Shown here: positions 1 to 23,025 of the stretch, piece after piece
Layout of the letters: every line of letters starts with the position of its first letter
Numbering within the stretch: the stretch's first letter is position 1
IMG/VR virus record: IMGVR_UViG_3300048585_000017
Coordinates: 1 to 39,996 of that record
Source of the DNA: a virus
Direction: 5' to 3' (one strand)
DNA length: 39,996 bases
Translations under genes and position numbers: made by a program
The notes under the pieces: generated by a model
The model's database searches: none
The model's input: only the letters and a program-made list of their open reading frames with translations
What the model was told of the DNA's origin: nothing

Positions 1-1713
1 CAGTACAAATACCTCCTCCTAGACTCCCCGCTGGCCGAGGAGCTTTTCTGTAAACACTACCTTGACCTCGAACTCGCTCCATACCAAGTCTTCAGCATGA
101 AACTGATTAGGGGCAGGTTCCACAGTGAAGAGGAAATCTATCGCTTCATCCACGACAACGACATGGAGTGGATGTTTGACAACGGGTACATCAAGCACGG
201 CGGAAATGACGGCATCAGCCCTTACTACTGGGAGAAACCTAATGTTCTTATCCTTTGGCCAGCAGGGTTTGGCAAGACAACCATCGTCTCCACTCGGGCG
301 ATTCCTGTCATGGAGATATGCGACAATCCTAACAGCAGAAACCAGTACATCGGAAAGAACGAGACAGAATCGTTCTCCTTCTCAACCAACATAAGGCGGG
401 AACTCCAGAACCCGCGCATCGTCAAGGACTTCGGAGACCCCAAGCCGACCGACAAGGCTGTGCCGTGGGCGAACCAAGCATTCTCTGTCCAGCAGCGGCA
501 ATGGAGGGATGTACGTGAGAACTTTGAGTTCTACGGAACTAACAGTCACGCCGAACTCGGCAAGCGCAGCGACAGAGTATACATTGACGACGTTGAGACT
601 CCCGACACGGCCCGCACTCCGGATATGCGAGACAAACTACTGGAATGGATGCGGATTGGGCCGCTTACATCTGCGCGTCCTATTTGGCCAAGAGACGGAC
701 TCGGAAATGTAAGGATTCCAAAGACCATCGACTGGAGCAGGACTGCCCGCTACTGGAGCGCAGCTTTCGTTGGAACCATCTTCCATCCAGAGGGTCTCTA
801 TGCCATGCTGATGAGGGACCCGACATTCACCTGTGTAAAGTTCGACTGCTATAAGGACAAGAAGTGCACTGTCGGACTTTCCTTCAACGAAAAGACCAAC
901 GCCGACACGATGCTCAGTGCAAAAGACCTCCAACGAGAACTGCGCTCCATCGGGATATTGTCGTTCAACAAGCGTTACCGCAACATCGCGTACAATGAGG
1001 AGGAAATGGCGTTCCGAGAGGCATGGGTGCGCGGGACCGAGGAGGAAGTGAATGGACAACGCATCCATCACGTCGGGTGTCTTGATAAGGACCGTTCTTT
1101 TGGCGACCCAGACCAACGCTGGGACCTTTACTGCGGATTCGACCCTGCTTCAGGCTCTCGCTCTCGCTGGTCAGCTCATGCCGCATATGTCATTCTTGGT
1201 GTTGACAAAGAAGACCCAAGGGGACGAATACACTTGGTCGATTACCTTAAACTCCAAGAAAACTTCGACCGTATGCTAGACCACCTTCTTGAGGGCAACC
1301 CTAAATACGCGATAGAGGGTTTCTACGCCAAATACCGCTATGGGTGTGCAGTGGTGGAGGACAACGCCTTTGGGAAGTGGATTATCGACAATGACAGGAT
1401 GAAGCCCTACATTGACAAGGGCCTTATCCGCTCCCACCACACGGGTGCGAATAAGACAGACCCAGAGGCCGGTGTTTTCTCAATGGGCAGCATGATTCAG
1501 GACGGACGCTTCCGCATCCCATACAAGGAGTCCTCTGACATGGACAAGGCGGAATCCTTCATCGGTGAACTCCTCATGTACCCGAAGGGCACCTGTGACC
1601 TCGTTATGAGCATGTGGCTGGCCACACGATATATGCGCATCGGCAAGCCGGAGTACAAAACTGTGGTTGGACCGGGGAGTCGGGTCAAGCACTATCACAA
1701 TCCTTCCAGATGA
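1..1713 (+). CDS. terL: Terminase large subunit (5' end outside window)
   Basis: This is the ATPase and nuclease motor that packages phage DNA into the prohead. The frame is open from the first base of the window, so the N-terminus is missing; an internal ATG at 97 is unlikely to be the true start because the frame upstream of it encodes family-like sequence. A P-loop WPAGFGKTT (bases 256-282) has the deviant Walker A form typical of large terminases. VYIDDVE (near 577-597) serves as Walker B plus catalytic Glu. The C-terminal half has RNase H-fold nuclease signatures: YCGFDPASG (near 1130), an acidic strand CAVVEDNAFG (near 1350), and a late Asp in GTCDLVMSMW (near 1590-1620). The portal gene follows after 45 bases that carry a promoter-like site. 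The small terminase subunit is not in the window. The assignment is firm. Confidence 0.93.
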   Translation, partial: QYKYLLLDSPLAEELFCKHYLDLELAPYQVFSMKLIRGRFHSEEEIYRFIHDNDMEWMFDNGYIKHGGNDGISPYYWEKPNVLILWPAGFGKTTIVSTRAIPVMEICDNPNSRNQYIGKNETESFSFSTNIRRELQNPRIVKDFGDPKPTDKAVPWANQAFSVQQRQWRDVRENFEFYGTNSHAELGKRSDRVYIDDVETPDTARTPDMRDKLLEWMRIGPLTSARPIWPRDGLGNVRIPKTIDWSRTARYWSAAFVGTIFHPEGLYAMLMRDPTFTCVKFDCYKDKKCTVGLSFNEKTNADTMLSAKDLQRELRSIGILSFNKRYRNIAYNEEEMAFREAWVRGTEEEVNGQRIHHVGCLDKDRSFGDPDQRWDLYCGFDPASGSRSRWSAHAAYVILGVDKEDPRGRIHLVDYLKLQENFDRMLDHLLEGNPKYAIEGFYAKYRYGCAVVEDNAFGKWIIDNDRMKPYIDKGLIRSHHTGANKTDPEAGVFSMGSMIQDGRFRIPYKESSDMDKAESFIGELLMYPKGTCDLVMSMWLATRYMRIGKPEYKTVVGPGSRVKHYHNPSR

Positions 1714-4039: not shown

Positions 4040-4426
4040 GTGGCTGGGCGCGGAACCATCTCGGTGAACCAGTCGCCGCAGCATGGAGACAAGACGGCTC
4101 TTGACAGCGCAAGCAAGGCCATTACCTACACGCCAGACACCATGGTCCCCACCCCGGCCAAGGGGGCTGGAAGGCCGAGAACGTCAGGACCACAACAGGC
4201 GCAGCAACCATCGGCACAGCCTCAGGCACAGCCAGAAGGTGTCCCCACGCAGCATCAGGACGCCATCAGGCGTCTTCGGGACGCCTACAGGGTCAACCAG
4301 TATTGGCAGAACGTCTACGCAACCTACCCAGACGAGTGGACGAGATGGTACGCACAGGACGCGCAGAGGAATCTCGAACAGGTGAAGATGATGGTCCGTA
4401 ACTCTACCCCATTCTTCTCTGAATAA
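4040..4426 (+). CDS. Small Gln/Pro-linker virion-region protein, unknown
   Basis: A 128-residue protein starting with GTG two bases after the portal stop; its stop overlaps the next start as TAATG, so the three genes are probably translationally coupled. The first half is disordered and rich in Gln, Pro and Ala (residues about 30-70). The second half is a predicted amphipathic helical domain with many aromatics, for example YRVNQYWQNVYATYPDEW. I do not recognise the family. Its place between the portal and the giant protein suggests a virion or assembly role, such as a portal-associated or chaperone-like factor, but this is inference. No strong ribosome site precedes the GTG. Confidence 0.65.
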   Translation: MAGRGTISVNQSPQHGDKTALDSASKAITYTPDTMVPTPAKGAGRPRTSGPQQAQQPSAQPQAQPEGVPTQHQDAIRRLRDAYRVNQYWQNVYATYPDEWTRWYAQDAQRNLEQVKMMVRNSTPFFSE

Positions 4427-7400
4427 TGGCCCTCATTGGTCCGGGCGGCAAGCCCTATCGTAAGAAGAAAAAGAAGCCACAGAAGCCGCAGAGGCCACAG
4501 GCGGCTAGGGTCAACCGCGAACGCGCATCAGGCTATGCTCCACCGAAACCTGCTGCGAGGCCCCCGCGAGAGCCGAATGTAAACCCACAGCGGTATAAAG
4601 ACCTCGACCCAGACCTAACCCCGACCATCACCACGAATGTACGGACTCTCACCGACGCATTCGAGGCGAAGTTCAACAGACGGCCCACCTCAACGCAGGC
4701 ATTCCAGATGCTCTCAACCATCGGGAACGAGGAACTCGGGCCGGGGGATTGGGGAGCGTTCCTAGCCCCAGCCATCGCCAGCAACTCCGCAAGTGCCGAA
4801 CTGATGAAGTATGCCCACCAATACTACCGGGAAACCGGGTATTTCCCCAACGCTGCACATATGAAGATTATTATGCAGTCAGGCGGGAAGGTGAACTTCG
4901 GAGATATGGCAACTCCGCGCAACGACCACGTACTCGCCGACGTTCTGTTCAACGGAGCATTGAAGGATGCCCGAACGAAGGAGCGTGAACGCGCCAAGAA
5001 AAGCAACTACCGCTTTTCCAACAAGGACATCATGAAGATGCCGGGTGGGCCGAAGACGCTGGCCGGGGCTATGAAGGCCCGCCAACTCGCCAACCGCCCG
5101 ATGTTCACACTTGGTAAGACATGGGACGCTGAAGACCCCGACGAGCGCATCAACCAGAAGGACCTTGACCGTATCAACGAGGTGAGAACGTGGTACGGTA
5201 TGACGACTTTCAAGAAGAAAATCGAGAAGAACATCATCGACCGTGAGACCATTGAGAATGCAGGAAGTTGGATGGTGAACCCGGACGGCAGCCACAACAA
5301 GGAAGCTGCCAAGGTCGTCTCCACGCTTGCCGGGAAAGATGCGCTCATCGGCCTCGATACATTCGTCGGCCTGAAGGACAAGGCATTCCACAACAAGGAC
5401 CTTGGCAAACCGGCGCAGCGTCATGTCGATGCATTTGGGAAGAGGCTCATGGAAATCTTCCCAGACATGCAGGGTCCGGGGAAGGACGGCCATTTCCTCT
5501 GGAACGACAACTACGATAGATTCGCAGCCATGTTCCTCTTCAACGCCAACCTTCCCGACGCACTGCTGAGAAATGACTTCCCAGAGGACAGTGCTGAGTG
5601 GAAGCGCATCGAGAAGAGAAAGAAACTGGCACAGGCGGGACTCTCCATCGCAACATCGGGTGTCATCAAACCGACTGACGACATCCGTGAATGGATAGAG
5701 AACGCACGTTTCCTTGGCCCAGTCGACAGCCCTGCACACTTCAGCGACATCCTCGACGAGTACCTGTTCGAGAACTGCTATCTTGGCACCATAGCTGGAA
5801 TGGACACCCCGCTGGCCACCGCAATGGCAGAGTACGTCACGAAGTACGGTGGAGGAAGGGTAGAATCTCTGCCCCTGAAATACCGCCAGCAGTATCAGGA
5901 CATCGAGGCCGCCGCCTACGCATCCCGTAAGGACGCGAGGGTGAAGTACGGAGACAGCCCCCTTAGCGTAAACTTCGGGATGATGTTCGACGAGGAAGTG
6001 GCGAGGCTGGAGAAGTTCAACGAGATTGAGTATCAGAGGGCGATGAGCGACCAGCCTCTGAGGGAGAAGCACAAGGGTTCCTTCGCGGAGATGAACACCC
6101 AGCAGGTGGACGATTGGGTGCAGAAGGCGTTGGACGACGAGCGGCCACCCGTCGTCGTTGGTCGCGGTGGTGGACCAGTCATCGACCCAAGAGACCCGCT
6201 TTCAGACAGTCAGATGTTCTACCATACCCGCATTCGTCCACTTGTGTATAACATGGTGGAGAAGCCACTGAACGCCCCCTATCGCTGGATACAGCGAATC
6301 TATCTAACTGCTGAACTTATGAAGGCGTACAGCAACGGGAAATACACGACGCTTGCCGAGGTTGGATTTGTCGGCGGTCCACAGGCCAAGGTGATGCGCA
6401 AGGTTCACGAGGGGGTTCAGGAGAACTATGGTGACTACACCCCAACCGTGGGAGCACTCAGAGGGACCAAGCCTGTTGCCGGTCTTGGTGTCGCATATTA
6501 CCTCGACCCGAGAAACCTCACAATTCCGCTGGACCCATCAGCATATACGTCCGAAGCCATCAGCAAGGCGTGGAATGATGCGAACAAGGCCGTCTCAGAG
6601 CATGGTTCAGACGCCTATATGCGGTATGAGTTCCGCCAACTCGGACTCGACCCAGACCAACATGGCGGGATGCTGTTCTTCGCATCCTTGGCACACTCTC
6701 TCGCCTTCGAGACAGTCGGAGATTTCGGTATTGGTGCGGCGGCCAGAGGTGGCACGAAACTCGCCGCACGTCTTGCCCGTGCAACCATCAAGCCAAGACT
6801 CCTCCAGCGCGTAGAGATTGCTCAAAAGACACTTGCGGAGACAAAGCGCGTCTCGTTGGATTCGGAGCTAGCCACTTGGCAGGGAAGGCTGGACACAGCT
6901 ACTGAGGCTCTGCGCAGGAATCCCGACTGGCTGGAAATCGAGCACGAGCGCGAACTAGCGGCTGCCAACGTCGACTACCTCTTGAAGTCAATCGAAGACA
7001 CTAAGAGGGTCGATGGTGATAAACTCATCCCAGTGGACATCGAAGACACCATCTATGGGCCAGACGAACTGGCAGCCATCAGGGTGAAGGACTATTACGC
7101 CGATGCCCACCTTCTCGAACGCCCTCTGTGGTATGATACCTTCGCAGAAAACCTCTCGAATGTGACCATCGACTCAGCGAGAGTGCAGTTCCTGTTCGGT
7201 ATCAAGGAACGCCACGTACCGGGTGGTGTGGTCGACGGCGTGAGCAACAAGGATGAGTACAACAGGCTGCTCCGCGTCATCGGCGAAAGCAGGGACGCAG
7301 ACGAGATTCAACTGGCGATGAACAAGCTGCGCTCAAGTTTCCTCCTGAAGGTGGACCCCGGAGCGTTGGCCCTCGGCAAGCTCCATCACTGGAACAGGAT

Positions 7401-10400
7401 TGTCCGTGGAGAGTCGTTCGGTAACATCACCATGGTCATGCCCGAAGGCAACATCATCAAGGGCGGTCTTGAGGAGGTAGAGGAGCACCTGCATGAGGTA
7501 TGGACGCTGGTGAACGGCGGTCAGGGTGGGAAGCACTCTGTCTCCGCAATGGACAGGATGTGGTACTACCTTCAGCGACTCCGTGACGTAGGGACCAAGT
7601 TGGATGAGACTGGTGCGCGTGTCTCAGCGAACCTCCCAGAGGCCACCAAGCGCGATATGCGGCTGGCGATTTGGCATGAGAGCCAACAAGAAATCGTCAA
7701 AGCCCTCATGGGCCGCACGCCCAGTGAGAGATTGGTACGCTCCATCGAGAGGTGGGCCAAGGCGAATGGCATGAAGGTTGACGATGGGATGCTGAACAAG
7801 ATACGCGAGTCCGAGTGGGCCGCGTACCAAGCCTTCCAGCTCATCAAGGGCCACAAGCATGTGCGCATCCCGATAGTCAAGAAGAGGTACAAAGACCTCG
7901 GCGAAGAACGCTGGTTCGATGAAATCCAATCGGGGGACCCCTTCATGCTGGGAAGCCAGAAGGGTGCTGGTCAGACGGGCAGCGACCTAGTTATGCACTT
8001 CAACCTCCAAGACCTCTCACACTTCCAGCGCGGCAAGTCATTCTCACAAATGGCCCTGAACACGAACCCCGGAGGCTGGCTGCCGTCATGGATGGGGGTC
8101 GTGAACGCCTCGAAGACACTTGCAGTGGCCTCTATGTCGTTCCCGCTGTCAGCACTCTTCATCGATGAGATATGGAGATTCGTTCCGGAGATTCTCGGCG
8201 GAAGAATCAGCCTGCGGGCTGCTGCGCGAGGATATGGGAGAAAAGAGCTTGAGGCTGTCGGGGACAGACTGACTGATGCCAGCCGCACGATGGTCATTGC
8301 ACACGCCAGCGGGAACAAGGAGGCCATCAGCACCGCCAAGAAGCAACTTGAGAAGGCGCAGAAGGAGTTCCGCGAAGTCTCTGAATACCACCGGGCAAGG
8401 TCGAAGGGGGCGCGACTCTCTGGCAACAGTGCCGCGATGGAATTGATGCAACAGAACAACTCGGAGTACATCCCCATCCTCCCCGGCACCAAGAACTACC
8501 ATATATTCCTCTCCAACCTAGTCAGGCAATATCAGGACGACCTTCTGTATATGGAGTTCACCGACTTCAGAAGACAACTGCAACTCCAATTGCTGGAGGG
8601 GCGCATCAAGCGTCGCATGTCTGCCGGGATGTCGCATGACGAGGCCGTGGCAGCAGCCACCAAGGAAGCTGACGAGTTCGTTGACAACATCGACCCGCAG
8701 GAATTCAAGGCCCTGTTCCGCCAGCACCTTATTGACCGCATCGTCAACAACTTCGAAGAGGGTACTGAAGCCAGCCTTGAGGCGGCTGGGCTGCGGCATA
8801 GCCTAAAGTCAACGGGTCGTTTGACTGACGACATGCTGGAGGAGGTAGACAAGGTTCTGGCGCGGCAGGAGGAGTATCTGCGGGCGACCAGCGAACTTGA
8901 CAACACGCGCATCGCCATCCGTCAGGAGCGTGAGCAGGCGATAGAAGAGCTACAGGAATGGAATGCCGCCCCACATGTCGTCCCTGCCAGCGAGGGTTTC
9001 CCCGTTCGTCGGGGATATGACGCTGAAGTGGTGCAGGGTGCCTTCGCAGATGCGCTGGCTCACATCCCCAAAAGTCAGAGAAAGGGAGGCCTCGCCAAGG
9101 CACTCCGTGATTTCAAGGACAACCCAAACGAGTCTAGGTGGAACAACCTGCGCACGGAAGTTCTTGCCTCACTACGGTCGCAGCGCGACGCGCTGAACAA
9201 ACAACTCAAAGAACTTGACAAATCTGCTCCAACCCCAGCAGCAGCGAAACAGGTGGATACGTCAGCACTACAGGCTGACCTCGCGAAGGTTGAGCAAACC
9301 ATTGCCAATCTCTCTGCTAAGGATGACAAAGCTGTTGAGGCGGCAGAGGCCCTTGCAAAAGAAAGAGCTGGACTCGCAGCCCGCATCAATGCGATAAGTG
9401 ATGCCGTAAACAGCGGCACCACACCAGCTCCAGATGTTGCTAGGTCCATAGAGCCAGACTTCGAGCCGATTCCAGAACCGTTGGTGCGCCCAGAGCTTAT
9501 GGCTGACGACGACTACTCCGACTTCACCACCGAATACCTGCTGCAAGAGGTTGAGGGACTGAAGTACAACAATAAGACTGGTGAGTGGAACACCAAGGCG
9601 TACCAGCGGGAGCAGGCTGGGTATGATAGCCACGCTGCCTTTATGAACGCTGGCGAAGAGTACGAGGATGACATCGACGTTATCCAAGAAATCATGGAGG
9701 AGAACGCCGAGGATATGCGCTTTGCGTATGTCGGTGAAAACGGCAACCCGGCTGAGGGTAATCTTCCTGATGGATGGGAGGCCCAGTCCACCGATAGGTA
9801 CCATAGGGGCGTCGAGCTTGACACTGGCGAGACTTATGACTTCTACGTTGAGTTCGACCCAGATGACAACCAGTGGCACTTGATTGAGGAGACTTCACTT
9901 GGTGATGTTACTCCTCGCGGTAAGACTGACTTTGATACGCTTGACGATGCTATCCGTTACTTTGAGCGCAAGCTGCTTGATGATGCGCAGGCACCTACAG
10001 CAGCCGCGCCCACCCCCAATATAGAATCCCTCAAGAAGCAAGTAGCTACTGCACAGAAAGAACTTGATGAGTTGGAGAAGAGTGCCGCGCCTGACGCAGG
10101 AACTGCTCCAAGCGCAACGTGGGGTAGAGTTGACGGAGTGCATACGCTGGAAGTCGACGGAAAGAAATTCACCATCGTCAAGGAGCGAAGCAAGTGGCAT
10201 GTCAAGGAAGATGGCAGGCCGATGCACAACCCCCTCCTTGGCGGTAAGGAAGACCTCCGCGAGGGGTGGGATGTCGGGTTTGAGAATCTAAGGTTTGCGA
10301 AGGATGCGGTTGAGGGACGCCGCAAGGAACTCGCGCCTGCCGCAAAGCGCGAAACTCCAACCACACCAGCGGCTGCACCAGACCTAGTTACCAAGGACAG

Positions 10401-13400
10401 CATTCGTGCGGCAAATGCGGAAGCTCTCAGTCTTGGGAGGAAGCATCAGGCAACGTACTATGTCTACCGGAATGAAAATGGGAAGTACGACGTAACAACT
10501 CGTATGCGCGAGGGTGAAGCCACTCTCAACCAGCCAGTCACGTACTCGCAGGTTGGTGGCAAGAAGACCAAGACCGCAGCGGAAGCCAGCAAGGAAGCTC
10601 TAAAAGAGAGACAAATCGCAAAGAAGCAGGGGCTTCTGGACGACCTCACGCAACAGCTTAGGGACGCGGAAGCTGGGCAGACGCCCGGTCAGATAGAGAT
10701 GCCCGAGGCCCCGAAGGGTGAGGTGCCAGCGGTCAAGGCAGACCGGCCCGAGGCCCCGAACCTTGAAGACCTCAACCGGCAACTCGCCGAAGTGCAGGAA
10801 AAGGCCGACGAGATTCTGGATGCGCTGACTGAGAAAAACGAGCAACTGAGCAAGGCGAATGCCGAGAAAGAACGCATCCAGCAGGCAATCACCAAGGCCG
10901 ACGAGGCTCCAGTAGACGACGGGATGACCTACGAGGAGATGGCCGAACTCATCGACGGTGCGGATGGCTACATGTGGGACGAGTTGCAGGCTTCTCGCGC
11001 AGCTCTCAAGGCCGACCCATTGAACGAAAGTCTCCATAACGCCCATCAGGTGATTCTCCGCAAGAGAAGAGAAAACTTCGCGAAGAAGAATGAACTCAAG
11101 TTGACGCAAACATATATTCGCGGAAGAAGAGACGCACTCAACAGCGCAATCAACAAGATGCCACGCACGGCACCAAAGCGGCCACCAGACAGAATGACGT
11201 ATGTCCGTCCGGAGAGAGTCACGACACGCGGCGAAGCTCGCCGCAGGGCCATGTTGAGTTGGAAGCAACTCCAGCAAGACCCACGAGGCCGGATGGCGAT
11301 TGTGGAGAGGATGAAGAGTCAGCTTCCAACCATAGAGGGTGCTGGTGCTGTTGCCGACGCCGCAGACCCCGCTACGCAGAAAGCTATTCTCGACGCAGTG
11401 AACGACGAACGGTTGAGAATGGCTGGGCTGCTGGATGACGACCCGGCGAAAGCGTCTCCGATGGACGGGTACCGTGACATCAGAAGCAGGCTTGACGGCC
11501 TGCGTGACCAGCGGCGCGTGAATGAGGAACAGATAGAGGCACTCGGCTCCTTCCCACGACACCAGTTCCTCACTGACAAGGGTGAAGAATGGATGGAGGA
11601 ATCCATCGACCGCCTGATGCTGCTGCACAACCAGCCGGAACTCCGTGATGCGATTCTCCATCAGCGCGACCTGACGGACTATGAGGTTGCCGAGATAAGG
11701 ATGAGGCTTGGCGATATGTATGGGCGAAACCCAGCCGGTGACCCACTGAAGGACCTCCCGCAGGTGTACGGGGTGAAGAACAGCGGCACATCGTGGTTCG
11801 CCTCCCCCGGCAGTGCACCCGGAAACATCCCCCTCGTGTCGAGACTGGCGGAGATAACTGCGTACAGGCTTCTGAACGCCATGGGCAACACTACGAGGAA
11901 AATGGCATTCTACGGGAACTTCAATGTCGAATTGCGTCGCCTCATGGACGCAGGGTACACCATGGAGGATGCGGCAGAAGCCGCCATGTGGCGTGCGAAG
12001 GACTACGCCGACTCCGTGATGTATAAACCGGGGATGACAGCCCTTGAAAGCGACCTCGCCGGGTATATGTACTTCCTCCCGGCCTACCGACAGGGCACCA
12101 TATACTGGGGGCAGCAGTTCCTCAAGCACCCGCTGGTGTACTCGCACCTCGCCTCAGCAGGACAGGAAGAGTTCCCCGTGCAATACCTTGGCGACTATGG
12201 CGCGTACATCCCGCTGCCGCTGTTCATGGGTGGGAACCTTGGGGAGATGGCCATTCCGGGCCTCACGGCACCACTGCTGGCACCGTTGAGAATTGCAAAC
12301 AGCTTCACCGGGTGGGAGTACGTCAACGTCTCCCCAAACGACACCACCACCACCTCTGACGACGACATGAAATGGGTCTACACCGGGAACACCAAGATGG
12401 ATTGGCTGTCCGAGAACAGGTTCCTGAACCCTATGACTGGGTTCGCCGACAAGAATGCATCCCCTACCTCTTGGATGGACGACTTCATCTACGGATATGC
12501 CGGGACTATAGCCCCATTGGAGGTAGATGGGGACTTCGGCAGGATATTGTCGTCCATCGCCATTTCAATGCGTAAGGACCCGATGGCCAGAGAACGGGCA
12601 TCCTTCAACATCATGCAAGAGCAAATAGCGAGAGGGCACGCCCCCGATACAGACCTCTTCGAGGCCCGCATCAAGGGGCAGCCGGGGTGGTACACCCTCC
12701 TCACCAAACTGAAGGCGAAGCACCCGGAAGCTGTACTCGGGATGCTGACACGGCAGCTCACGCTGAGAAAGATTCTGTACTCACCGCGCAGCATCGGTGA
12801 AATCGAGCCTGTTGAAATCGAAGGAGAACCGGGCAACCTCTGGAACTATATCGGGATGTTCAGGGACGATAATGCCCGCACACTCTCAGAGGCCGACTGG
12901 GAGTACACGCAGGCTTCCGGCAACCCAGAACTACAGAAGCGCATCCTTGAGAAGTACCCACGCCTAAAGGCTACGAAGCTGTTCTTCAAGATGACGGCAG
13001 AGGAGAAGCAGGACTTCCTTCTGAAAGAGAAGAACCACCACCTCATCCCCTACATCACCGGGAAGAACATGTATGGCGACGGCAGGCCATTGAACGAATG
13101 GGAGTTCATCCACCTCCGCGAGCGCGGCATCATCAGGCGGAAGGATAACGCAGACTGGCTTAGGTCGGCGAACATCCTCCACGCCACCTCAAACTACACC
13201 AAGCAGCACAAAATCATCGAGGACAAGAAGAAAAGCGACCTCAAGGCCGCAAAGAAGTACATCTATGACCTCATGAAAAAGGACAATCTCCCTGCTTACA
13301 CCGAAGCACATCGCAAGCGGGAACTTGAGGGCTATTTTGAGGAGTATTGGGGCAAGGAGAATGTGTCTTCTGATGTGAACTCTGACACGAAGTACGCTCC

Positions 13401-14472
13401 GCCTGAATGGCTGCCCAGCCTTGTCAGGCGGAAGGGGGCAAAGGGCGACTACAACAAGCCGTCACTATGGGACCCCGGTGCCATTCGGCTGAACTTCGAC
13501 GAGAACGAACAGGCGATGAGGGATGACAAGTCTGCCGAGTGGGCCGGGGCATACACCACCCTTGAGGACTATTACGACAACAACATATACAAGAAGGCAA
13601 AACTTGAGGATGGCGGCGTTGGAGACTTCAACCGCATCAGCGGGGCTTTCAACGACATGCTGCTGCCGGAGGACCGGAAGGAATTCGCCCTCAATCGCAG
13701 CGCATCCATCAACTACATCAGGGAACGGACGAAAGAAGAGAAGGAAGAGCGGGAGCGTGCCATTGTGAAGGTCGTTACCTCCAAGTCTTGGGAGTCGAAC
13801 AGCGTCGAGGACATCGTGAACGCCTGTCCCGGTATCATCACCCCCGGTTCTCCGAACTACGTCGGCTCATACGATGATTTCAGTGACTGGCTTGACCTCG
13901 CCGACAAGGCCTTTGGAGCGAAGAAGGACGCCTATGCGGCCAGCAAGAACAAAATCAATCCAGACACATACTCAGATGCTGCCGAGAAGGCGCAGGATGT
14001 CTATAATAAAGAGATGGCTAGGCTTGAGAAGACACCAGTCGGAAGGTTCTTCAGCCTCGGCCTCCCCTACCGCATCCTCAACACCAGTCTCGCAGACCCC
14101 GGACATGGGAGAAAGCTGAACAAGGAGTTCATCAGCGACGTGGTGAAGGCCACTGGCAAAGACGGCGACCTCACCGACGTGTTGCCGGAACTCCCCATAG
14201 CGGGGTACAAGGACCAGAAGAAGAATCTCTCCGCACACGCATGGGCTTCAATCATGCTGGCGGCAGAGAAGGAAAAGCGGAAGATAGACAACGAGCGCAA
14301 GTACCGCCCGGATGACGGCCACATCGGTGATGTGGAGAGAAAGGCAGGAACGAGACTTACGAGGCTTGTTGAGCACTGGATGAAACGCCCCCTGAGTAGC
14401 CGATTCAAGAAGGAATGGGAGAAATACTACGGGTACAGCATCCTTACTTCTTACTTTGGGGGTGACTACTGA
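4426..14472 (+). CDS. Giant 3348-residue virion-type protein
   Basis: One uninterrupted frame of 10 kb between the portal-side genes and the 542-residue protein. The N-terminus is a Lys/Arg/Pro-rich basic tail (residues 1-50), followed by mostly helical sequence. A hydrophobic helical stretch lies at about 1222-1260 (around ASKTLAVASMSFPLSALF). Long charged coiled-coil segments lie at about 1470-1670 and 2065-2160, interrupted by three small beta-rich modules joined by Ala/Pro linkers (about 1690-1855, 1900-1970 and 1990-2060). A second hydrophobic, Gly/Pro-rich patch is at about 2545-2630 (GYMYFLPAYRQG, then EMAIPGLTAPLLAPL). The C-terminal 600 residues are charged and helical. I see no lytic transglycosylase, peptidase or RNA polymerase signature. 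By analogy with very large internal or ejected proteins of short-tailed phages it may be packaged and ejected with DNA, or act as a tape-measure substitute; that is inference. No ribosome site is visible, and the start overlaps the previous stop. Confidence 0.85.
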   Translation: MALIGPGGKPYRKKKKKPQKPQRPQAARVNRERASGYAPPKPAARPPREPNVNPQRYKDLDPDLTPTITTNVRTLTDAFEAKFNRRPTSTQAFQMLSTIGNEELGPGDWGAFLAPAIASNSASAELMKYAHQYYRETGYFPNAAHMKIIMQSGGKVNFGDMATPRNDHVLADVLFNGALKDARTKERERAKKSNYRFSNKDIMKMPGGPKTLAGAMKARQLANRPMFTLGKTWDAEDPDERINQKDLDRINEVRTWYGMTTFKKKIEKNIIDRETIENAGSWMVNPDGSHNKEAAKVVSTLAGKDALIGLDTFVGLKDKAFHNKDLGKPAQRHVDAFGKRLMEIFPDMQGPGKDGHFLWNDNYDRFAAMFLFNANLPDALLRNDFPEDSAEWKRIEKRKKLAQAGLSIATSGVIKPTDDIREWIENARFLGPVDSPAHFSDILDEYLFENCYLGTIAGMDTPLATAMAEYVTKYGGGRVESLPLKYRQQYQDIEAAAYASRKDARVKYGDSPLSVNFGMMFDEEVARLEKFNEIEYQRAMSDQPLREKHKGSFAEMNTQQVDDWVQKALDDERPPVVVGRGGGPVIDPRDPLSDSQMFYHTRIRPLVYNMVEKPLNAPYRWIQRIYLTAELMKAYSNGKYTTLAEVGFVGGPQAKVMRKVHEGVQENYGDYTPTVGALRGTKPVAGLGVAYYLDPRNLTIPLDPSAYTSEAISKAWNDANKAVSEHGSDAYMRYEFRQLGLDPDQHGGMLFFASLAHSLAFETVGDFGIGAAARGGTKLAARLARATIKPRLLQRVEIAQKTLAETKRVSLDSELATWQGRLDTATEALRRNPDWLEIEHERELAAANVDYLLKSIEDTKRVDGDKLIPVDIEDTIYGPDELAAIRVKDYYADAHLLERPLWYDTFAENLSNVTIDSARVQFLFGIKERHVPGGVVDGVSNKDEYNRLLRVIGESRDADEIQLAMNKLRSSFLLKVDPGALALGKLHHWNRIVRGESFGNITMVMPEGNIIKGGLEEVEEHLHEVWTLVNGGQGGKHSVSAMDRMWYYLQRLRDVGTKLDETGARVSANLPEATKRDMRLAIWHESQQEIVKALMGRTPSERLVRSIERWAKANGMKVDDGMLNKIRESEWAAYQAFQLIKGHKHVRIPIVKKRYKDLGEERWFDEIQSGDPFMLGSQKGAGQTGSDLVMHFNLQDLSHFQRGKSFSQMALNTNPGGWLPSWMGVVNASKTLAVASMSFPLSALFIDEIWRFVPEILGGRISLRAAARGYGRKELEAVGDRLTDASRTMVIAHASGNKEAISTAKKQLEKAQKEFREVSEYHRARSKGARLSGNSAAMELMQQNNSEYIPILPGTKNYHIFLSNLVRQYQDDLLYMEFTDFRRQLQLQLLEGRIKRRMSAGMSHDEAVAAATKEADEFVDNIDPQEFKALFRQHLIDRIVNNFEEGTEASLEAAGLRHSLKSTGRLTDDMLEEVDKVLARQEEYLRATSELDNTRIAIRQEREQAIEELQEWNAAPHVVPASEGFPVRRGYDAEVVQGAFADALAHIPKSQRKGGLAKALRDFKDNPNESRWNNLRTEVLASLRSQRDALNKQLKELDKSAPTPAAAKQVDTSALQADLAKVEQTIANLSAKDDKAVEAAEALAKERAGLAARINAISDAVNSGTTPAPDVARSIEPDFEPIPEPLVRPELMADDDYSDFTTEYLLQEVEGLKYNNKTGEWNTKAYQREQAGYDSHAAFMNAGEEYEDDIDVIQEIMEENAEDMRFAYVGENGNPAEGNLPDGWEAQSTDRYHRGVELDTGETYDFYVEFDPDDNQWHLIEETSLGDVTPRGKTDFDTLDDAIRYFERKLLDDAQAPTAAAPTPNIESLKKQVATAQKELDELEKSAAPDAGTAPSATWGRVDGVHTLEVDGKKFTIVKERSKWHVKEDGRPMHNPLLGGKEDLREGWDVGFENLRFAKDAVEGRRKELAPAAKRETPTTPAAAPDLVTKDSIRAANAEALSLGRKHQATYYVYRNENGKYDVTTRMREGEATLNQPVTYSQVGGKKTKTAAEASKEALKERQIAKKQGLLDDLTQQLRDAEAGQTPGQIEMPEAPKGEVPAVKADRPEAPNLEDLNRQLAEVQEKADEILDALTEKNEQLSKANAEKERIQQAITKADEAPVDDGMTYEEMAELIDGADGYMWDELQASRAALKADPLNESLHNAHQVILRKRRENFAKKNELKLTQTYIRGRRDALNSAINKMPRTAPKRPPDRMTYVRPERVTTRGEARRRAMLSWKQLQQDPRGRMAIVERMKSQLPTIEGAGAVADAADPATQKAILDAVNDERLRMAGLLDDDPAKASPMDGYRDIRSRLDGLRDQRRVNEEQIEALGSFPRHQFLTDKGEEWMEESIDRLMLLHNQPELRDAILHQRDLTDYEVAEIRMRLGDMYGRNPAGDPLKDLPQVYGVKNSGTSWFASPGSAPGNIPLVSRLAEITAYRLLNAMGNTTRKMAFYGNFNVELRRLMDAGYTMEDAAEAAMWRAKDYADSVMYKPGMTALESDLAGYMYFLPAYRQGTIYWGQQFLKHPLVYSHLASAGQEEFPVQYLGDYGAYIPLPLFMGGNLGEMAIPGLTAPLLAPLRIANSFTGWEYVNVSPNDTTTTSDDDMKWVYTGNTKMDWLSENRFLNPMTGFADKNASPTSWMDDFIYGYAGTIAPLEVDGDFGRILSSIAISMRKDPMARERASFNIMQEQIARGHAPDTDLFEARIKGQPGWYTLLTKLKAKHPEAVLGMLTRQLTLRKILYSPRSIGEIEPVEIEGEPGNLWNYIGMFRDDNARTLSEADWEYTQASGNPELQKRILEKYPRLKATKLFFKMTAEEKQDFLLKEKNHHLIPYITGKNMYGDGRPLNEWEFIHLRERGIIRRKDNADWLRSANILHATSNYTKQHKIIEDKKKSDLKAAKKYIYDLMKKDNLPAYTEAHRKRELEGYFEEYWGKENVSSDVNSDTKYAPPEWLPSLVRRKGAKGDYNKPSLWDPGAIRLNFDENEQAMRDDKSAEWAGAYTTLEDYYDNNIYKKAKLEDGGVGDFNRISGAFNDMLLPEDRKEFALNRSASINYIRERTKEEKEERERAIVKVVTSKSWESNSVEDIVNACPGIITPGSPNYVGSYDDFSDWLDLADKAFGAKKDAYAASKNKINPDTYSDAAEKAQDVYNKEMARLEKTPVGRFFSLGLPYRILNTSLADPGHGRKLNKEFISDVVKATGKDGDLTDVLPELPIAGYKDQKKNLSAHAWASIMLAAEKEKRKIDNERKYRPDDGHIGDVERKAGTRLTRLVEHWMKRPLSSRFKKEWEKYYGYSILTSYFGGDY

Positions 14473-16100
14473 TGGGATGGAAACCGAAAGATTGGACAGA
14501 AGAAGATAGCGTCAAACGCGAGAAAGCACTACAGCAATGGTGGAATAACGAAGGCTACCCCGGCAAGCCTCCTGAAGCACTGAGAAAGTGGTATATGGAG
14601 GATGTCTCCCGCACGCCGGGAGCTGGGCTTACCTACCTCCGTACAAAGAAGAAGGACATCTGGCGACAGACTGTCATCTATCGCAATCGGAGGGAGGAGG
14701 CGCGGAAGGCTCTCCTCGATACCTTCGGGGATATACCAGAGTTCATCACCAAGGACTTCCTCGACGAGCACGCAGACCGCATCGCGTTTCTGAACCCCAA
14801 TCGCAAGTTCGGCGAAATCATCACCACCCTCCTGCAAAAGAAGCTCATTGGCAGCAGGGTCTTCACCGAGAACCACCCGTCCATGGATGCGTGGTTGCGG
14901 GCGAACGGCTATGTTGGCATAAAAGAAGTCACTGGCGACTCACTCAAGTTGTACTTGGCAGCACGAAAGGGTCTCATCGAAGCGTGGAAGTCTTGGAACA
15001 GCGGGAACGGGTTCAAGCCGCCGACCGACGAAATGCTGAACAGGGCACTTGCTGAAAACTGGTCCCCTACGCAGTGGGAGGCTGAGTTCACCAAGAGTGC
15101 AGACTACGGCAGCACTGGGGCCTACAAGGATAAGGCAGCCGACTTCGAGGAGTTCTGGGAAAACAACATGCGTGGAGTGAACTTCGACGAGGGGGTCTTC
15201 GAAAGAGCAATGGATGCCTACGCCCGCAGCAGTAGTTCGAGGGTGGACGACTGGATGACGCGGTACGGCGTTGACTATGAGTGGTGGGACCAAGCATTCC
15301 CCGAATGGGACGATTGGTTTGCGGCTTATGACGAGGATAGTAAGGCCGGATTCGATGACTACCTTAAAGAACGGAGGGCATACATCGACAGATGGGACCA
15401 ACTGTTCGGAGACAACAGCGAAATCGACCCAGCCCTCCTCTCGAAGGCGTTGAGAGAGAGATGGGACCTCAACTTCTTCGAGAAGCAGGTGAAGAGTCTC
15501 CCTGCATATGGAAATACTCCAGATGCAAAAGAAAAGGGGATGAGGTTCGATGACTACTGGCACAGCATCATGGGAGAGGGGGCACCAGTGGATGAGAGTC
15601 TGCGCCAGAAGTACATCTCATCCGGCTCCTCCGACACCTCGCTGATGTGGGATGACATCAAAGAGACATCACTCTTCCGTGCACAGTTCCCGAACTGGGA
15701 AGCCTTTGCCGCCTCACAATACGCAGCCGGGGTGAATGTCACCAAGGACCCGGCGCGGTATAATGCATACAGGAAGGCTATGCAGGATGCCTTCGCCGAG
15801 ACCGGGACGTTCATGCCAGCCGGTCTTGAGGCGGAGATATTCGGGTCTGGCCTCAGTGAAAGCGACATAGAAACTGGTGTCGGTACATGGGCAGCAGGCA
15901 AGGATTCACTCGCGATAGTCGGCGGGCAGCAGGCCGACCTTCGCACATCGATGGGACTCAACGACAAGGTAGTAGGAGGTCAGCTACGGGATAGACTACG
16001 GCAGGCTATCGACGCGCACGCGAAGTACCTCAACAGCACCACAGCACAGTACAAGGTAAGGGAGACCGGCGAAGCAGAACTGGTCACCCAGAAAATCTGA
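14472..16100 (+). CDS. Trp-rich internal-repeat protein, probable virion component
   Basis: A 542-residue protein whose ATG overlaps the stop of the giant gene (TGATG), so the two are co-translated. It is acidic and unusually rich in Trp, Phe and Tyr. Two segments, about residues 186-258 and 320-390, align as a duplication: both read AL-x-E-x-W, then an aromatic/Glu core, then YG-x-T-x-x-x-K-x-K, then FxxxW or FxxYW, and end in a Ser-rich turn. Between them is a Trp/Asp-dense stretch (WWDQAFPEWDDWFAAYDED). The C-terminus (about 460-542) is Gly-rich and then helical. I do not recognise a named family. Tight coupling to the giant gene and placement before scaffold suggest it is a partner or second ejected or internal virion protein; this is inference. 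Confidence 0.75.
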   Translation: MGWKPKDWTEEDSVKREKALQQWWNNEGYPGKPPEALRKWYMEDVSRTPGAGLTYLRTKKKDIWRQTVIYRNRREEARKALLDTFGDIPEFITKDFLDEHADRIAFLNPNRKFGEIITTLLQKKLIGSRVFTENHPSMDAWLRANGYVGIKEVTGDSLKLYLAARKGLIEAWKSWNSGNGFKPPTDEMLNRALAENWSPTQWEAEFTKSADYGSTGAYKDKAADFEEFWENNMRGVNFDEGVFERAMDAYARSSSSRVDDWMTRYGVDYEWWDQAFPEWDDWFAAYDEDSKAGFDDYLKERRAYIDRWDQLFGDNSEIDPALLSKALRERWDLNFFEKQVKSLPAYGNTPDAKEKGMRFDDYWHSIMGEGAPVDESLRQKYISSGSSDTSLMWDDIKETSLFRAQFPNWEAFAASQYAAGVNVTKDPARYNAYRKAMQDAFAETGTFMPAGLEAEIFGSGLSESDIETGVGTWAAGKDSLAIVGGQQADLRTSMGLNDKVVGGQLRDRLRQAIDAHAKYLNSTTAQYKVRETGEAELVTQKI

Positions 16101-16113
16101 TTAGGAGCGGGAC

Positions 16114-16674
16114 ATGGCTGATGACATCGAAACTCAGGATACGTTCGACGAGGGCGATGGCAGCGACAATCTTTGGGACATCATCGAGCGGGAAGACCCC
16201 GAAAACGAGCGGTATGCAGACGAGGAAGAGGAGCAGGACGAGGTTACGGCCAAGCAGGACAAGCTTGAGCGTAAAATCACCGCGAAGATGGAGAACATGA
16301 CGAAGAAGTTCGAGCACTCCATGCTGCGCGACAAGGTGGAGAAGTTCCAGAAGGAAGCCGACGAGATTGAGCGCGACCTCTTCAAGACCGTGGCAGCCGA
16401 CGTGAAGACCATCGAGGACTTCGACAAGGCTGTGGCCGTCGCCAAGAAGCAGGCTAAACAGCTACGCGAGACTGCCGATGCGTACAAGAAGCAGCTTGAA
16501 GAGAAGGCCGAGCAAGAGGCCGCTTCGGCGTGGGGCATGGGTCCTGTCGGTGCTCCCCGTCAGTCCAAGCCGCCGGATGGTGAACAGGAAGTGTTGGACC
16601 GCATCCGTAACAACGAACCCGGAGCAGCCTTCGAGTCCATTGTCGGGGGTGACCTTCCGCCGTACAAGCGATAA
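16114..16674 (+). CDS. Scaffold-like acidic coiled-coil protein
   Basis: A 186-residue, strongly charged protein immediately upstream of the major capsid gene, the usual place of a phage scaffolding protein. The first 45 residues are very acidic (DEEEEQDE). Residues about 45-140 are continuous Lys/Glu heptad-like helix (for example KFQKEADEIERDLFKTVAA). The tail is Pro/Gly-rich, then a short C-terminal segment ends in PPYKR with basic residues that could bind the capsid shell. The start has a good ribosome site (AGGAGCGGG, five or six bases before ATG). Known scaffolds are poorly conserved, so the call rests on composition, length and location. Confidence 0.7.
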   Translation: MADDIETQDTFDEGDGSDNLWDIIEREDPENERYADEEEEQDEVTAKQDKLERKITAKMENMTKKFEHSMLRDKVEKFQKEADEIERDLFKTVAADVKTIEDFDKAVAVAKKQAKQLRETADAYKKQLEEKAEQEAASAWGMGPVGAPRQSKPPDGEQEVLDRIRNNEPGAAFESIVGGDLPPYKR

Positions 16675-16834: not shown

Positions 16835-18052
16835 ATGGCTTACCCCGAATCCCCAGTCGCAGGCGTAACCTATACTACCAATAAGACTGCCGATACCTTC
16901 GCACGCGAAGTCGACCAGAAGCTTTGGGTCGCCATGCAGGCGAAGAGTCCCATTCTCTACATGCTGGAACGCCCGAAGGTGGGCAACCGCAAGTTCGAGT
17001 GGGAGATTGACAGTCAGCCGCCGCGCAGGTACACGCTTGCTGCCGGTGGTGCTAACACCATCGTCGGTTCTGCGCAGGACGCAGACACCAAGATGACCCT
17101 CACCAGCGTTACCGGCCTCGAAGTCGGTGCCCTGCTGAAGAACATCACCCGCGCCACCACGGTCGGCAGTTACGGTCAGGACGAAACCCTTGAGGTCACG
17201 GCGATTGACGCTCTCGTCGTCACCGTTGACCGTGATGCTGGCGGGCAGGCGACCGCCAACGCCAACTCCGCTGTTCACACCGCTGGCGACATCATGGAGG
17301 TCATCTATACGCCGAAGCCTGAAGGTTCCGGCCCGGATGCCAACAAGTACACTGATGTCACGCTGGACTACAACTACACCAACACCGTCGACTTCTTCCT
17401 GACGGTCACCGGTGACCAGCTTGAGACGCAGCGGCTGGTTGGTGGCGACACCATCAAGAACCAGTTCGACAAGAACCTCCTGAACCTCAGTAACCAGCTT
17501 GAGTCGATGCTGTTCTATGGGGTCCAGCAGGCGCAGGCCGCTGTCACCGCCGGTAGCAACATCATGCGCACGAAGGGCCTTGACAACTTCATCGGCGTTG
17601 CCGGTGGCAACACCGACTTCACCACGAAGGATGTCACTCCCGCCGCGCTGGACGGTCTTCTGGCGGAAATCATCTACGACAAGTCAGACCCGGCCGACAA
17701 GTACATCATCGCGACCCATCCCGCCAACGCCCGTAAGGTGTCCACCTTCGGTGCCGACAAGGTGCGGCTGGGTCAGGAAGAGAACCGCTTCGGTCGGTTC
17801 GTCGACACCTTCATGTCTGACCTCGGCGTTCAGGTGCCCATCATCTGGTCGCTGAACGTCAGCCGCTCTGACCTCTTCATCCTCGACATGGACAAGATTT
17901 CCATGCCGATGTTCCGGATGTTCGAGAAGGCCGAGTGGAGCTATGGTGACGACGGCGTTGACGCTTGGCGTCAGCGTTACATGGGCAGCCTCGGCGTCAA
18001 GTGCGTCGATGCTCTCTACAGCCACGCCAAGCTGGGTCTCATCAGCTGGTAA
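16835..18052 (+). CDS. Major capsid protein, SU10/DUF5309-like
   Basis: The 405-residue shell protein. The middle and C-terminal part match, from memory of the family, SU10-type major capsid proteins (DUF5309, HK97 fold): a YTNTVDFFLTVTG strand, then TQRLVGGDTIKNQFDKNLLNL helix, ESMLFYGVQQ, and a conserved MRTKGLDNFI-like loop near residue 250. Later come the IIATHPANARKVSTFG segment and a C-terminal MGSLGVKCVDALYSHAKL strand. Residues about 60-155 form a beta-rich insertion (TLTSVTGLEVGALLKNI, VTVDRDAGG) as seen in this family. The ribosome site AAAGGAGG sits about 8 bases before ATG. It has its own promoter and a folded leader and is followed by a strong hairpin, consistent with high separate expression. 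Codon use is strongly C-ending, as expected for a highly expressed phage gene. Confidence 0.88.
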   Translation: MAYPESPVAGVTYTTNKTADTFAREVDQKLWVAMQAKSPILYMLERPKVGNRKFEWEIDSQPPRRYTLAAGGANTIVGSAQDADTKMTLTSVTGLEVGALLKNITRATTVGSYGQDETLEVTAIDALVVTVDRDAGGQATANANSAVHTAGDIMEVIYTPKPEGSGPDANKYTDVTLDYNYTNTVDFFLTVTGDQLETQRLVGGDTIKNQFDKNLLNLSNQLESMLFYGVQQAQAAVTAGSNIMRTKGLDNFIGVAGGNTDFTTKDVTPAALDGLLAEIIYDKSDPADKYIIATHPANARKVSTFGADKVRLGQEENRFGRFVDTFMSDLGVQVPIIWSLNVSRSDLFILDMDKISMPMFRMFEKAEWSYGDDGVDAWRQRYMGSLGVKCVDALYSHAKLGLISW

Positions 18053-20764: not shown

Positions 20765-21541
20765 ATGGCCTATTTGAGATATGGGGATAGGGGGCCACAG
20801 GTAAAGAGGTTGCAGCGTGCCCTAAACGACAACCCCTACTACAAGCCTAAGCCGAAGTTGAAGGTCGACGGTGAGATGAAGAACCTTACCTGCGCCGCTG
20901 TGCAGGACTCCAAGTTTCTAATTGGATACCCAAAGGACCACCTCGACCCCGACGCCCGTGACCAGATTGCGGGTGAACTGCTGCTGAAGCTTCTTGAGCG
21001 AAGGCTTCCACTCCCGCCTGAGTATGCCCGTCGCCGCAAGGCGCGGCTGGCGCAGAAGCGCAAACGCAACAGCATCGTCAGCCAGCAGACCCTGATGCGG
21101 CGGCGTGCGCTGAAGTGCGTCAAGGCCGAGGTAGGCACGATGGAGCGCGGAAACAATCGCATCCGGTACAACGACTGGTGGGGCTGGGGGCCGGTCGCCT
21201 ACTGCGTCATCGGCATCTCGTGGTGCTGGGTCAAGGCCGGGTCGGTCGCATTCAAGAAGGGTTCACGCTGGGCTGGGACCGACGCGATGCTGTGGGACGC
21301 GAAGGCGGGACGGAACGGCATCCACCTCACCAGTTCCCCAAAGGCCGGTTGCCCCGGAGTCATCGACTTCAACGGCCATTCCGACCCCGACCACGCCATC
21401 ACGTTCATCAAGTGGGCGAACCGAGAGAAGACTCTCGTGACTACTGCTGAGTTCAATACAGGAGGACCGAACGGAGTGCAGGGAGTATGGTACAAGACAA
21501 GACCGAATTGGCAGTGCTGGTGGATGGAGGTAGAAAGGTGA
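20765..21541 (+). CDS. Endolysin: peptidoglycan-binding plus CHAP-like domain
   Basis: A 258-residue cell-wall hydrolase for host lysis. Residues 1-60 look like a peptidoglycan-binding-1 domain (RYGDRGPQVKRLQRALN, DGEMKNLTCAAVQ). A basic linker (about 85-118, many Arg and Lys) leads to a CHAP/NlpC-like papain-fold domain. The likely nucleophile is Cys147 in PVAYCVIGISWCW, with His210 in DPDHAITFI; a second Cys is at 154. There is no signal peptide, so export would need a holin. GAGGAGGG lies before the ATG. The last four bases overlap the start of the next gene. The bond cleaved (amide or cross-bridge peptide) cannot be read from sequence. Confidence 0.85.
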   Translation: MAYLRYGDRGPQVKRLQRALNDNPYYKPKPKLKVDGEMKNLTCAAVQDSKFLIGYPKDHLDPDARDQIAGELLLKLLERRLPLPPEYARRRKARLAQKRKRNSIVSQQTLMRRRALKCVKAEVGTMERGNNRIRYNDWWGWGPVAYCVIGISWCWVKAGSVAFKKGSRWAGTDAMLWDAKAGRNGIHLTSSPKAGCPGVIDFNGHSDPDHAITFIKWANREKTLVTTAEFNTGGPNGVQGVWYKTRPNWQCWWMEVER

Positions 21542-23025
21542 GTTCCAAGCCGCATGTGTTGATAGCTGCGCCTACGTGGTCTGGCGGAGAGTACGCGCTC
21601 AAGTCGTGGGCTGCCGCTGTCAAGGCACAGGTCTACGATGGACCGCTGTCCTACTTCATGGTGGACAACTCGAACGGCCCGCAGAACCCGGACAATCAGG
21701 GACTCCACTACCTGCACCTCATCCGTGGTCAGGACATCCCCGCCGTCTGGCAGGAGGTGCGCTGGCCAGCCCTGTGGGACACACTAGAACTCTCGTGGCG
21801 GCTCATCGTCGAGCACGCTCACGAGGTCGGCGCGGAGTTCATCTTCTCCGTCGAGCACGATGTCATCATCCCGCCCGATGCCACCGAGAAGATGGTGGCT
21901 GCCTCTCTACAGCACGCCGTGGACGGGAAGCCCGCCGTGGTCACGCAGCGGTATCACCCGAGGGGCCAGCGCGGCATCTTCTGGTGGGACACGCTGGGCT
22001 GCTCGCTGTTCCCGACCGAGCCGCTATGGCAGGACCGCAACCTCGTGCGAGCCATGTACGAGACAGAGGTGTTCCTCACCACTGAGAGGCATGGCCACCC
22101 GCGCTACCGCCCCGGCAAGAACGACGAGGACCTGTTCATCCCCGAGCACCTTAAAGACCCCAAGGACCTCTACGGCAACACCAGTGGCGCGACTCCGGCG
22201 CAGGACACCTATCGTATCCGCGTCGTCAACCACAACCGTGAGTTGGCCGGGGAGCAGCCACTGGTCCCCAGTGCCGAGCTGCCAGAAGAGAAGCCCAAGC
22301 CCAAGGCCAGCCCCGCCGCACTGGACAAGTCCACCATCCCGCCTGCGTTTGGCTCGTGGGAGAACCTCCATCCAGACATACCCATCGCGCTGGGAGACAT
22401 CAACCTCGCTGATGATGGGGCAATCGACCTCATCCAAGACCGCGACTGCATCCGTCTCAATCTCGGCTCAGACCGGCAGCAAATCAGCGGTTTCCTCTCC
22501 GTAGACTTCCGGCCCGAGGTCAGCCCCGACGTTGTGGCCGACATCAAAGACCTGTCCATGTTCGAGGACGACAGCGTTGAGGAGATTTACGCCAGTCACG
22601 TTCTCGAACACCTGACATGGGAGGAGGGACTTGAGGCACTGAAGGAGTGGATGCGGGTGCTGAAGCCAGCCGGGATGCTTACCGTGGTGGTGCCCGACAT
22701 CGTGCAAATCTACCACATGATGAAGCACGGCCAGCGGTGGGGCGAGTACCGGATGCCGATGGACCAGCAGTACGTGCAGGCGTGCGCCTTCGGAGCGCAC
22801 CTGCTGTCCGATGTCATCCCAGAGATGCGTGACCAGTACGGCAATCAGGGGCACGAGCACAAGTCCATCTACCTGTACGACATGCTCCTCAACCGCGTCA
22901 TCGAGGCTGGCTACGTGCTGTGCCACGAAGTCGCAATGTGCTTCCTGCGCCCGTCGAACATCGGCGAGGTCATGGTGCAGGCACGTAAACCGTTCATCCC
23001 GATAGAAGGAGAAACACATGGCTAA
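21538..23025 (+). CDS. Glycosyltransferase (GT2-like)-methyltransferase fusion
   Basis: A 495-residue two-domain enzyme. GTG at 21538 is chosen because GGAGG lies seven bases before it and it overlaps the lysin stop (GTGA). Residues about 5-200 look like a GT-A glycosyltransferase: KPHVLIAAPTWSGG at the N-terminus and FSVEHDVIIPP near 104-112, where EHD may act as the metal/sugar-nucleotide site. A Pro/Lys-rich linker lies at about 245-265. Residues about 300-410 are a class I SAM methyltransferase: LNLGSD at 307-312 as the AdoMet loop and SHVLEHL near 353, with MRVLKPAGMLTVVVPD as strand 4 and flanks. The pair could add a sugar and then methylate it, or act on separate sites. Substrates could be fibre, capsid or host envelope; it sits among appendage genes. 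No DNA-binding feature is seen. Confidence 0.78.
   Translation: MSSKPHVLIAAPTWSGGEYALKSWAAAVKAQVYDGPLSYFMVDNSNGPQNPDNQGLHYLHLIRGQDIPAVWQEVRWPALWDTLELSWRLIVEHAHEVGAEFIFSVEHDVIIPPDATEKMVAASLQHAVDGKPAVVTQRYHPRGQRGIFWWDTLGCSLFPTEPLWQDRNLVRAMYETEVFLTTERHGHPRYRPGKNDEDLFIPEHLKDPKDLYGNTSGATPAQDTYRIRVVNHNRELAGEQPLVPSAELPEEKPKPKASPAALDKSTIPPAFGSWENLHPDIPIALGDINLADDGAIDLIQDRDCIRLNLGSDRQQISGFLSVDFRPEVSPDVVADIKDLSMFEDDSVEEIYASHVLEHLTWEEGLEALKEWMRVLKPAGMLTVVVPDIVQIYHMMKHGQRWGEYRMPMDQQYVQACAFGAHLLSDVIPEMRDQYGNQGHEHKSIYLYDMLLNRVIEAGYVLCHEVAMCFLRPSNIGEVMVQARKPFIPIEGETHG

Follow-up and report, generated by a model that had tools for sequence, protein, structure and literature searches.

The 39,996-base viral contig analysed here (IMG/VR record IMGVR_UViG_3300048585_000017), referred to as the window, is incomplete at least at its terminase end. 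In order, its genes encode the terminase, the portal, a 128-residue protein, a giant protein, a 542-residue protein, a scaffold-like protein and the major capsid protein (MCP), followed by fibre, lysis and tail genes (Table 1). The subject of this analysis is the giant, a single open reading frame (ORF) with an ATG start and 3348 codons for a protein of 377.6 kDa, which takes up 10,047 of the 39,996 bases (25%). The original prediction, made from the letters alone, had given this frame, its length and its quarter of the window exactly as we find them, and had proposed a packaged, ejected protein that might form a DNA conduit or act in the host; of its placement between portal and scaffold the order is correct, but the 128- and 542-residue genes lie in that interval as well. 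With a probability of roughly 0.75, we regard the giant as an ejected internal virion protein of a podovirus.

Searches with the whole giant and with peptide patterns against viral contigs, and with the giant or halves of giants against GenBank phages, returned nothing. Relatives were found by searching viral contigs with the terminase large subunit (TerL), which is the best conserved gene of the window and served as query, with the portal, and with a motif from the core of the giant. The terminase and portal searches yielded contigs with terminases about 61-77% identical, the core-motif searches two more distant viruses, L078 and L080. With near-identical contigs counted once, eight further distinct uncultured phages carry a giant after the portal, which together with that of the window makes nine giants of 2205-3513 residues. 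End overlaps of 127 bases suggest that the assemblies of G002 (51.6 kb) and G004 (50.8 kb) are circular and complete. The portal precedes the giant in all nine, and a relative of the 542-residue gene follows wherever the downstream gene is seen (the L078 stretch ends before it); in L080 this gene encodes 278 residues and its start overlaps the stop codon of the giant. L080 also holds the largest relative, a protein of 3513 residues with 3 cysteines and a KKKKKK run near the N-terminus, on a 49.9-kb contig. As searched here, neither Pfam, PHROGs and the PDB nor GenBank phages contain the family; other workers may have come across its members in IMG/VR and left them undescribed.

The giant ORF is a real gene, as follows from its presence after the portal in eight further viral contigs and from purifying selection. 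Nonsynonymous (dN) and synonymous (dS) divergence amounted to dN 0.20 / dS 0.79 between the giants of G004 and G005 and to dN 0.53 / dS 1.36 between those of G005 and G011; the dN/dS of ~0.25-0.4 in the closer pairs indicates purifying selection, the ratios being rough because dS is large for several genes. The start codon lies within the stop codon of the 128-residue gene (TAATG) and that of the 542-residue gene within the stop codon of the giant (TGATG), each with a one-base overlap, and the three genes are therefore probably translationally coupled. Promoter and terminator scans of the region returned sites no more numerous than in shuffled sequence.

Identity between the window and its relatives was 66-76% for the terminase, 56-65% for the portal, 37-47% for the MCP, 32-42% for the putative scaffold and 24-30% for the 542-residue protein; for the giant it was about 22-26%, close to the noise of a forced global alignment. 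In profile comparisons, the giants proved homologous mainly in a C-terminal core, with that of the window alignable in three places (the N-terminus, a weak motif in the middle, and the core) and those of other clades aligning over longer stretches of up to about 1300 columns. The extra length of the window giant sits mainly in roughly 900 residues between the mid motif and the core, which are only ~165 residues apart in the clade G008/G002. At its N-terminus the window giant carries a lysine-rich tail (MALIGPGGKPYRKKKKKP), and a short basic tail opens all nine giants. The predicted two hydrophobic patches are less well founded: residues 1228-1249 alone rise above 1.2 in the Kyte-Doolittle mean of a 19-residue span, and a hydrophobic region of low charge lies at ~2400-2700. 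The predicted coiled coils and beta inserts (about residues 1780-2060) appear plausible from the sequence. In agreement with the described lack of a visible enzyme motif, the window giant matched nothing in Pfam, PHROG or GenBank phages and nothing credible in the PDB; these searches and an hhalign comparison with N4 gp50 revealed neither an RNA polymerase nor another enzyme in it. A PDB match to RNA-binding protein 40 (E 0.05) was taken as chance.

Table 1. Features of the window and of related contigs (coordinates without prefix refer to the window; aa, amino acids).
Feature	Position	Strand	Basis and remarks
Terminase large subunit, 5' end cut by the window	1..1713	+	PHROG 38, E 3.1e-36; frame open from base 1
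Portal, 759 aa	1759..4038	+	PHROG 332 / 104, weak
128-aa protein	4040..4426	+	30-46% identity in four relatives compared
Giant, 3348 aa, proposed ejected internal virion protein	4426..14472	+	ORF list, homologues, cysteine statistics
Giant, N-terminus, aa 1-116 (extending to aa 274 in the comparison with one clade)	4426..4773	+	hhalign E 2e-6; aa 1-274 against clade G008/G002 E 1e-16
Giant, mid motif, aa 1225-1284, weakly conserved, with the only clear hydrophobic stretch	8098..8277	+	hhalign E 7e-4, 0.0026
Giant, charged expansion separating mid motif and core, with apparent coiled coils and small beta inserts	8278..11583	+	spacing, composition
Giant, conserved core, aa 2387-2876	11584..13053	+	FLPAYRQ-x3-YW-x6-HP; hhalign E 5e-10, 9e-8 to two other clades
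542-aa partner	14472..16100	+	tandem helical repeats; C-terminal ...TQKI
Putative scaffold, 186 aa, acidic, directly before MCP	16114..16674	+	position, composition
MCP, SU10 type	16835..18052	+	Pfam PF17236 SU10_MCP, E 2.4e-29
512-aa protein with methyltransferase domain	21487..23025		Methyltransf_11, E 9e-8
887-aa glycine-rich tail fibre protein	25671..28334		cross-matches to relatives
883-aa tail-region protein	29189..31840
Giant of G006	L048:4175-11152	-	NlpC/P60 insertion
Partner of G006, 804 aa	L048:1746-4160	-	C-terminal part unaligned
Giant of L080, 3513 aa	L080:1724-12265
Amidoligase and gamma-glutamyl cyclotransferase-like genes of G002	L017:14922-17200	+	Amidoligase_2, E 2e-30

The window giant contains 2 cysteines, against about 36 expected from the window's other structural genes (average 1.09%), a deficit with P about 8e-14 under a binomial model, which is not a phylogenetic test. 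Over their 24,229 residues the nine giants together have 16 cysteines; the giant of G006 accounts for 6, one of which lies within the FDCSG motif of its NlpC/P60 domain. Cysteine is lacking altogether in the window's 128-residue, 542-residue and scaffold-like proteins. Among reference phages, the ejected proteins N4 gp50 (3500 residues), gp51 and gp52, T7 gp15 and gp16, and P22 gp7, gp16 and gp20 are free of cysteine and T7 gp14 has one, as compared to 0.85-1.4% cysteine in terminases, the P22 tailspike and the N4 DNA polymerase; SU10 gp20-gp24 are cysteine-free too. Avoidance of cysteine by proteins that have to lose and regain their fold during passage through the tail would be a likely reason. 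A limited literature search did not find such a rule stated for ejected proteins, and cysteine depletion is used here as an empirical correlate, not as a feature by which the literature defines them.

The giant of G006 carries an NlpC/P60 domain at residues 2023-2127 (Pfam E 1.6e-23). It forms a clean insertion (residues about 2000-2160) interrupting a region that can be aligned with the other giants, keeps the catalytic FDCSG motif, matches phage families described as 'tail protein with lysin activity', and is 42% identical to a peptidase of the Beephvirinae (blastp, E 5e-20). The insertion illustrates well how a protein of the ejection type can gain a domain; for T7 gp16, the hydrolase domain has been described as able to move between ejection components (PMC8954989).

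One protein of the window is related to the Gp80 podophage GP4 fibre (PF23140, E 8.5e-18), and the searches of the window and of late genes in the circular G002 recognised no family of tail tubes, tape measures, terminators, chaperones or baseplates. Together with the SU10-type MCP, this makes a short tail likely for the window phage. A 281-residue gene product tried as homologue of the SU10 adaptor had a sub-threshold Pfam match only, which hhalign did not confirm. Among GenBank phages, the terminase matched only those of Streptomyces phages (27-29% identity), which hints at a host among the Actinobacteria; neither a prophage nor a host turned up when about 85,000 GTDB genomes were searched with TerL and the portal.

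That the 542-residue neighbour may be a partner of the giant, as had been suggested, is supported by their co-occurrence, the coupled start and the shared cysteine depletion. It contains repeats, each of about 145 residues and arranged in tandem (E 1e-23 when its profile is compared with itself), and an AlphaFold2 model is all helical, with a predicted local distance difference test score (pLDDT) of 76 and a predicted template modelling score of 0.45. A fold search with this model gave no significant match, the scattered rows for phycobilisome linkers and TAL repeats, with Z up to 4.5, being below the interpretable level. Its TQKI-like C-terminus is similar in all aligned full-length members but that of G006. 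The G006 partner has a C-terminal part that is basic, of low complexity, out of register and unaligned with the family; a frameshift or sequencing error in its gene is likely. A lysozyme-like N-terminus suspected in the same protein had no library, PDB or phage match and is not claimed. Speculatively, the lysine-rich tail of the giant and the TQKI-like C-terminus of the partner could be docking signals for packaging.

Among the closest known systems are the Beephvirinae, podophages of Streptomyces, whose gp9/gp10 of about 1640 residues is annotated as hypothetical. They share with the window the order terminase, portal, small genes, giant and, further downstream, MCP, as well as the lack of cysteine in the giant (1646 residues there) and the next protein, and their portal is related to that of the window (hhalign E 5e-5). 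Unlike in the window, their giant is half the size; an NlpC/P60 peptidase and a glycosylase are encoded by separate genes downstream of the cysteine-free 1646-residue protein and before the MCP. Electron microscopy of Abafar, a member of this subfamily, showed a podovirus whose tail is very short (PMC11536984). N4 gp50 (Schitoviridae) resembles the window giant in its about 3500 residues, its lack of cysteine and the location of its gene near head genes, and as virion RNA polymerase (vRNAP) it is an ejection protein that is packaged and ejected (PMC12633501); it differs in carrying an RNA polymerase, and the host of N4 is Gram-negative. Cysteine depletion is shared by T7 gp14/gp15/gp16 and P22 gp7/gp16/gp20, as is a cell-wall hydrolase domain (T7 gp16) that some components have and others lack, but in T7 and P22 the ejection genes follow those for tail tube or neck, and gp16-like ejection proteins are much smaller than the window giant (609-1337 residues; PMC8954989). 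SU10 (Kuravirus) has the same type of MCP and a cysteine-free set that includes annotated ejection proteins and a 1473-residue protein; its genes for gp20-gp24, unlike that of the window giant, are located after the tail fibres.

The proposal of a packaged, ejected protein is thus backed by the cysteine depletion, the NlpC/P60 domain in the giant of a relative, the podophage proteins without a recognised tube or tape measure, and the Beephvirinae-like gene order. Several points weigh against it. These phages are known from sequence alone, from which we infer both virion presence and ejection. The scaffolds of T7 and P22, certain capsid proteins and the tape measure of lambda lack cysteine as well, so that its depletion marks a class broader than ejected proteins and is not specific to ejection. 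Of the six giants scanned against Pfam, one had the NlpC/P60 domain, and this was not the giant of the window; the AlphaFold2 model of the core of the window giant (residues 2380-3348) was unusable, with a mean pLDDT of 38. Homology of the giant or its partner to Beephvirinae gp10-14 was not found with hhalign, and the comparisons of the window giant with ejection proteins of T7, P22, N4 and SU10, made with shallow profiles, gave hhalign E-values above 0.03 for all pairs. At such divergence, missing similarity to the latter does not exclude a common origin, and the fast divergence of the giant under purifying selection is in keeping with reports that genes for internal virion proteins are highly divergent and mosaic (PMC10386132; PMC8954989).

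It is improbable that the giant is the tape measure of an unrecognised long, siphovirus-like tail. Tape measures are long, helical and fast-evolving and can lack cysteine (lambda gpH has none), and long-tailed phages, too, have tail proteins with cell-wall hydrolases (phrog_1015); against this stand the location of the gene, which follows the portal and precedes the MCP and every tail gene, the missing tube, terminator, chaperone and baseplate families in the window and in the circular G002, and the short tail to which the SU10-type MCP and the GP4 fibre protein point. We judge in the same way a packaged enzyme acting in the host after the manner of the N4 vRNAP, which is itself ejected: the size (3348 against 3500 residues) and the near-absence of cysteine are alike, but the giant does not align to gp50 and has no enzyme match in Pfam, PHROG or the PDB, and the one enzyme domain of the family is a cell-wall peptidase. 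Its size, its virion-gene neighbours and its insertion-prone middle would also suit a 'large polyvalent protein' that protects the incoming DNA or blocks host defences, and that is perhaps also packaged; we rate this as even less probable, as the Pfam scan of six giants revealed no polyvalent-associated, ADP-ribosyltransferase, nuclease or methylase domain. The lowest probability is assigned to a role in head assembly or structure in which the protein would remain inside the particle as internal core or scaffold. The neighbouring putative scaffold and the lack of cysteine in scaffolds could be cited for it; against it, a separate scaffold-like gene is present and the peptidoglycan peptidase in the giant of one relative needs access to the cell wall.

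As an ejected protein, the giant would be produced along with the head proteins and taken up into the capsid to lie near the portal, a step in which its basic tail and the 542-residue partner possibly serve. It would exit through the short tail in an un- or partly unfolded state, before or with the DNA, and outside would refold with its partner to build a structure by which the genome crosses the host envelope and in which the two form or line the DNA path; the giants of some relatives would also bring a cell-wall hydrolase. We infer packing, ejection, refolding and conduit formation for the giant, and the mode of action of the partner likewise; any specific conduit design is much less certain than ejection as such. 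Most likely, the family joins the ejection proteins by function, as a giant variant without polymerase. It is possible, but doubtful, that it represents a separate DNA-delivery machine of podoviruses, in which a single protein of 2200-3500 residues that is no polymerase takes, with one repeat-protein partner, the place of the usual three-protein ejectosome, possibly in phages of Gram-positive hosts; such hosts are conceivable because the only terminase matches among GenBank phages are from Streptomyces phages.

DNA passage across the envelope by short-tailed phages is known mainly from T7, P22 and N4, and to our knowledge the DNA-delivery machines of podoviruses of Gram-positive hosts have hardly been studied. 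The family would add giant ejection proteins without polymerase, encoded by 6.6-10.5 kb of genomes of about 40-52 kb. Cysteine depletion, as seen across the ejected-protein controls, offers a simple finder for such proteins where sequence search fails, and the Streptomyces Beephvirinae are culturable relatives by gene order for testing.

For the remaining genes, the terminase of the relatives begins ~54 residues upstream of window position 97, and the putative scaffold had no credible match in the databases searched. Among the lysis and fibre genes, the 512-residue protein has its class I methyltransferase domain confined to the C-terminal part. The glycine-rich fibre protein cross-matches several proteins in each relative, as if its repeat modules were shared between fibre genes. 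The 883-residue tail-region protein, for which database searches gave no match, is encoded by a single gene in the window, G006, G010 and G011, and by two genes (about 600 + 650 residues) in G002, G004 and G005. Between G004 and G005 (L021/L047), the MCP is only 45% identical, as compared to 93% for the terminases and 92% for the portals, which suggests an exchange of the MCP gene. In G002, the Amidoligase_2 enzyme gene adjoins a gamma-glutamyl cyclotransferase-like gene, the two perhaps forming a peptide-tagging or wall-modifying pair.

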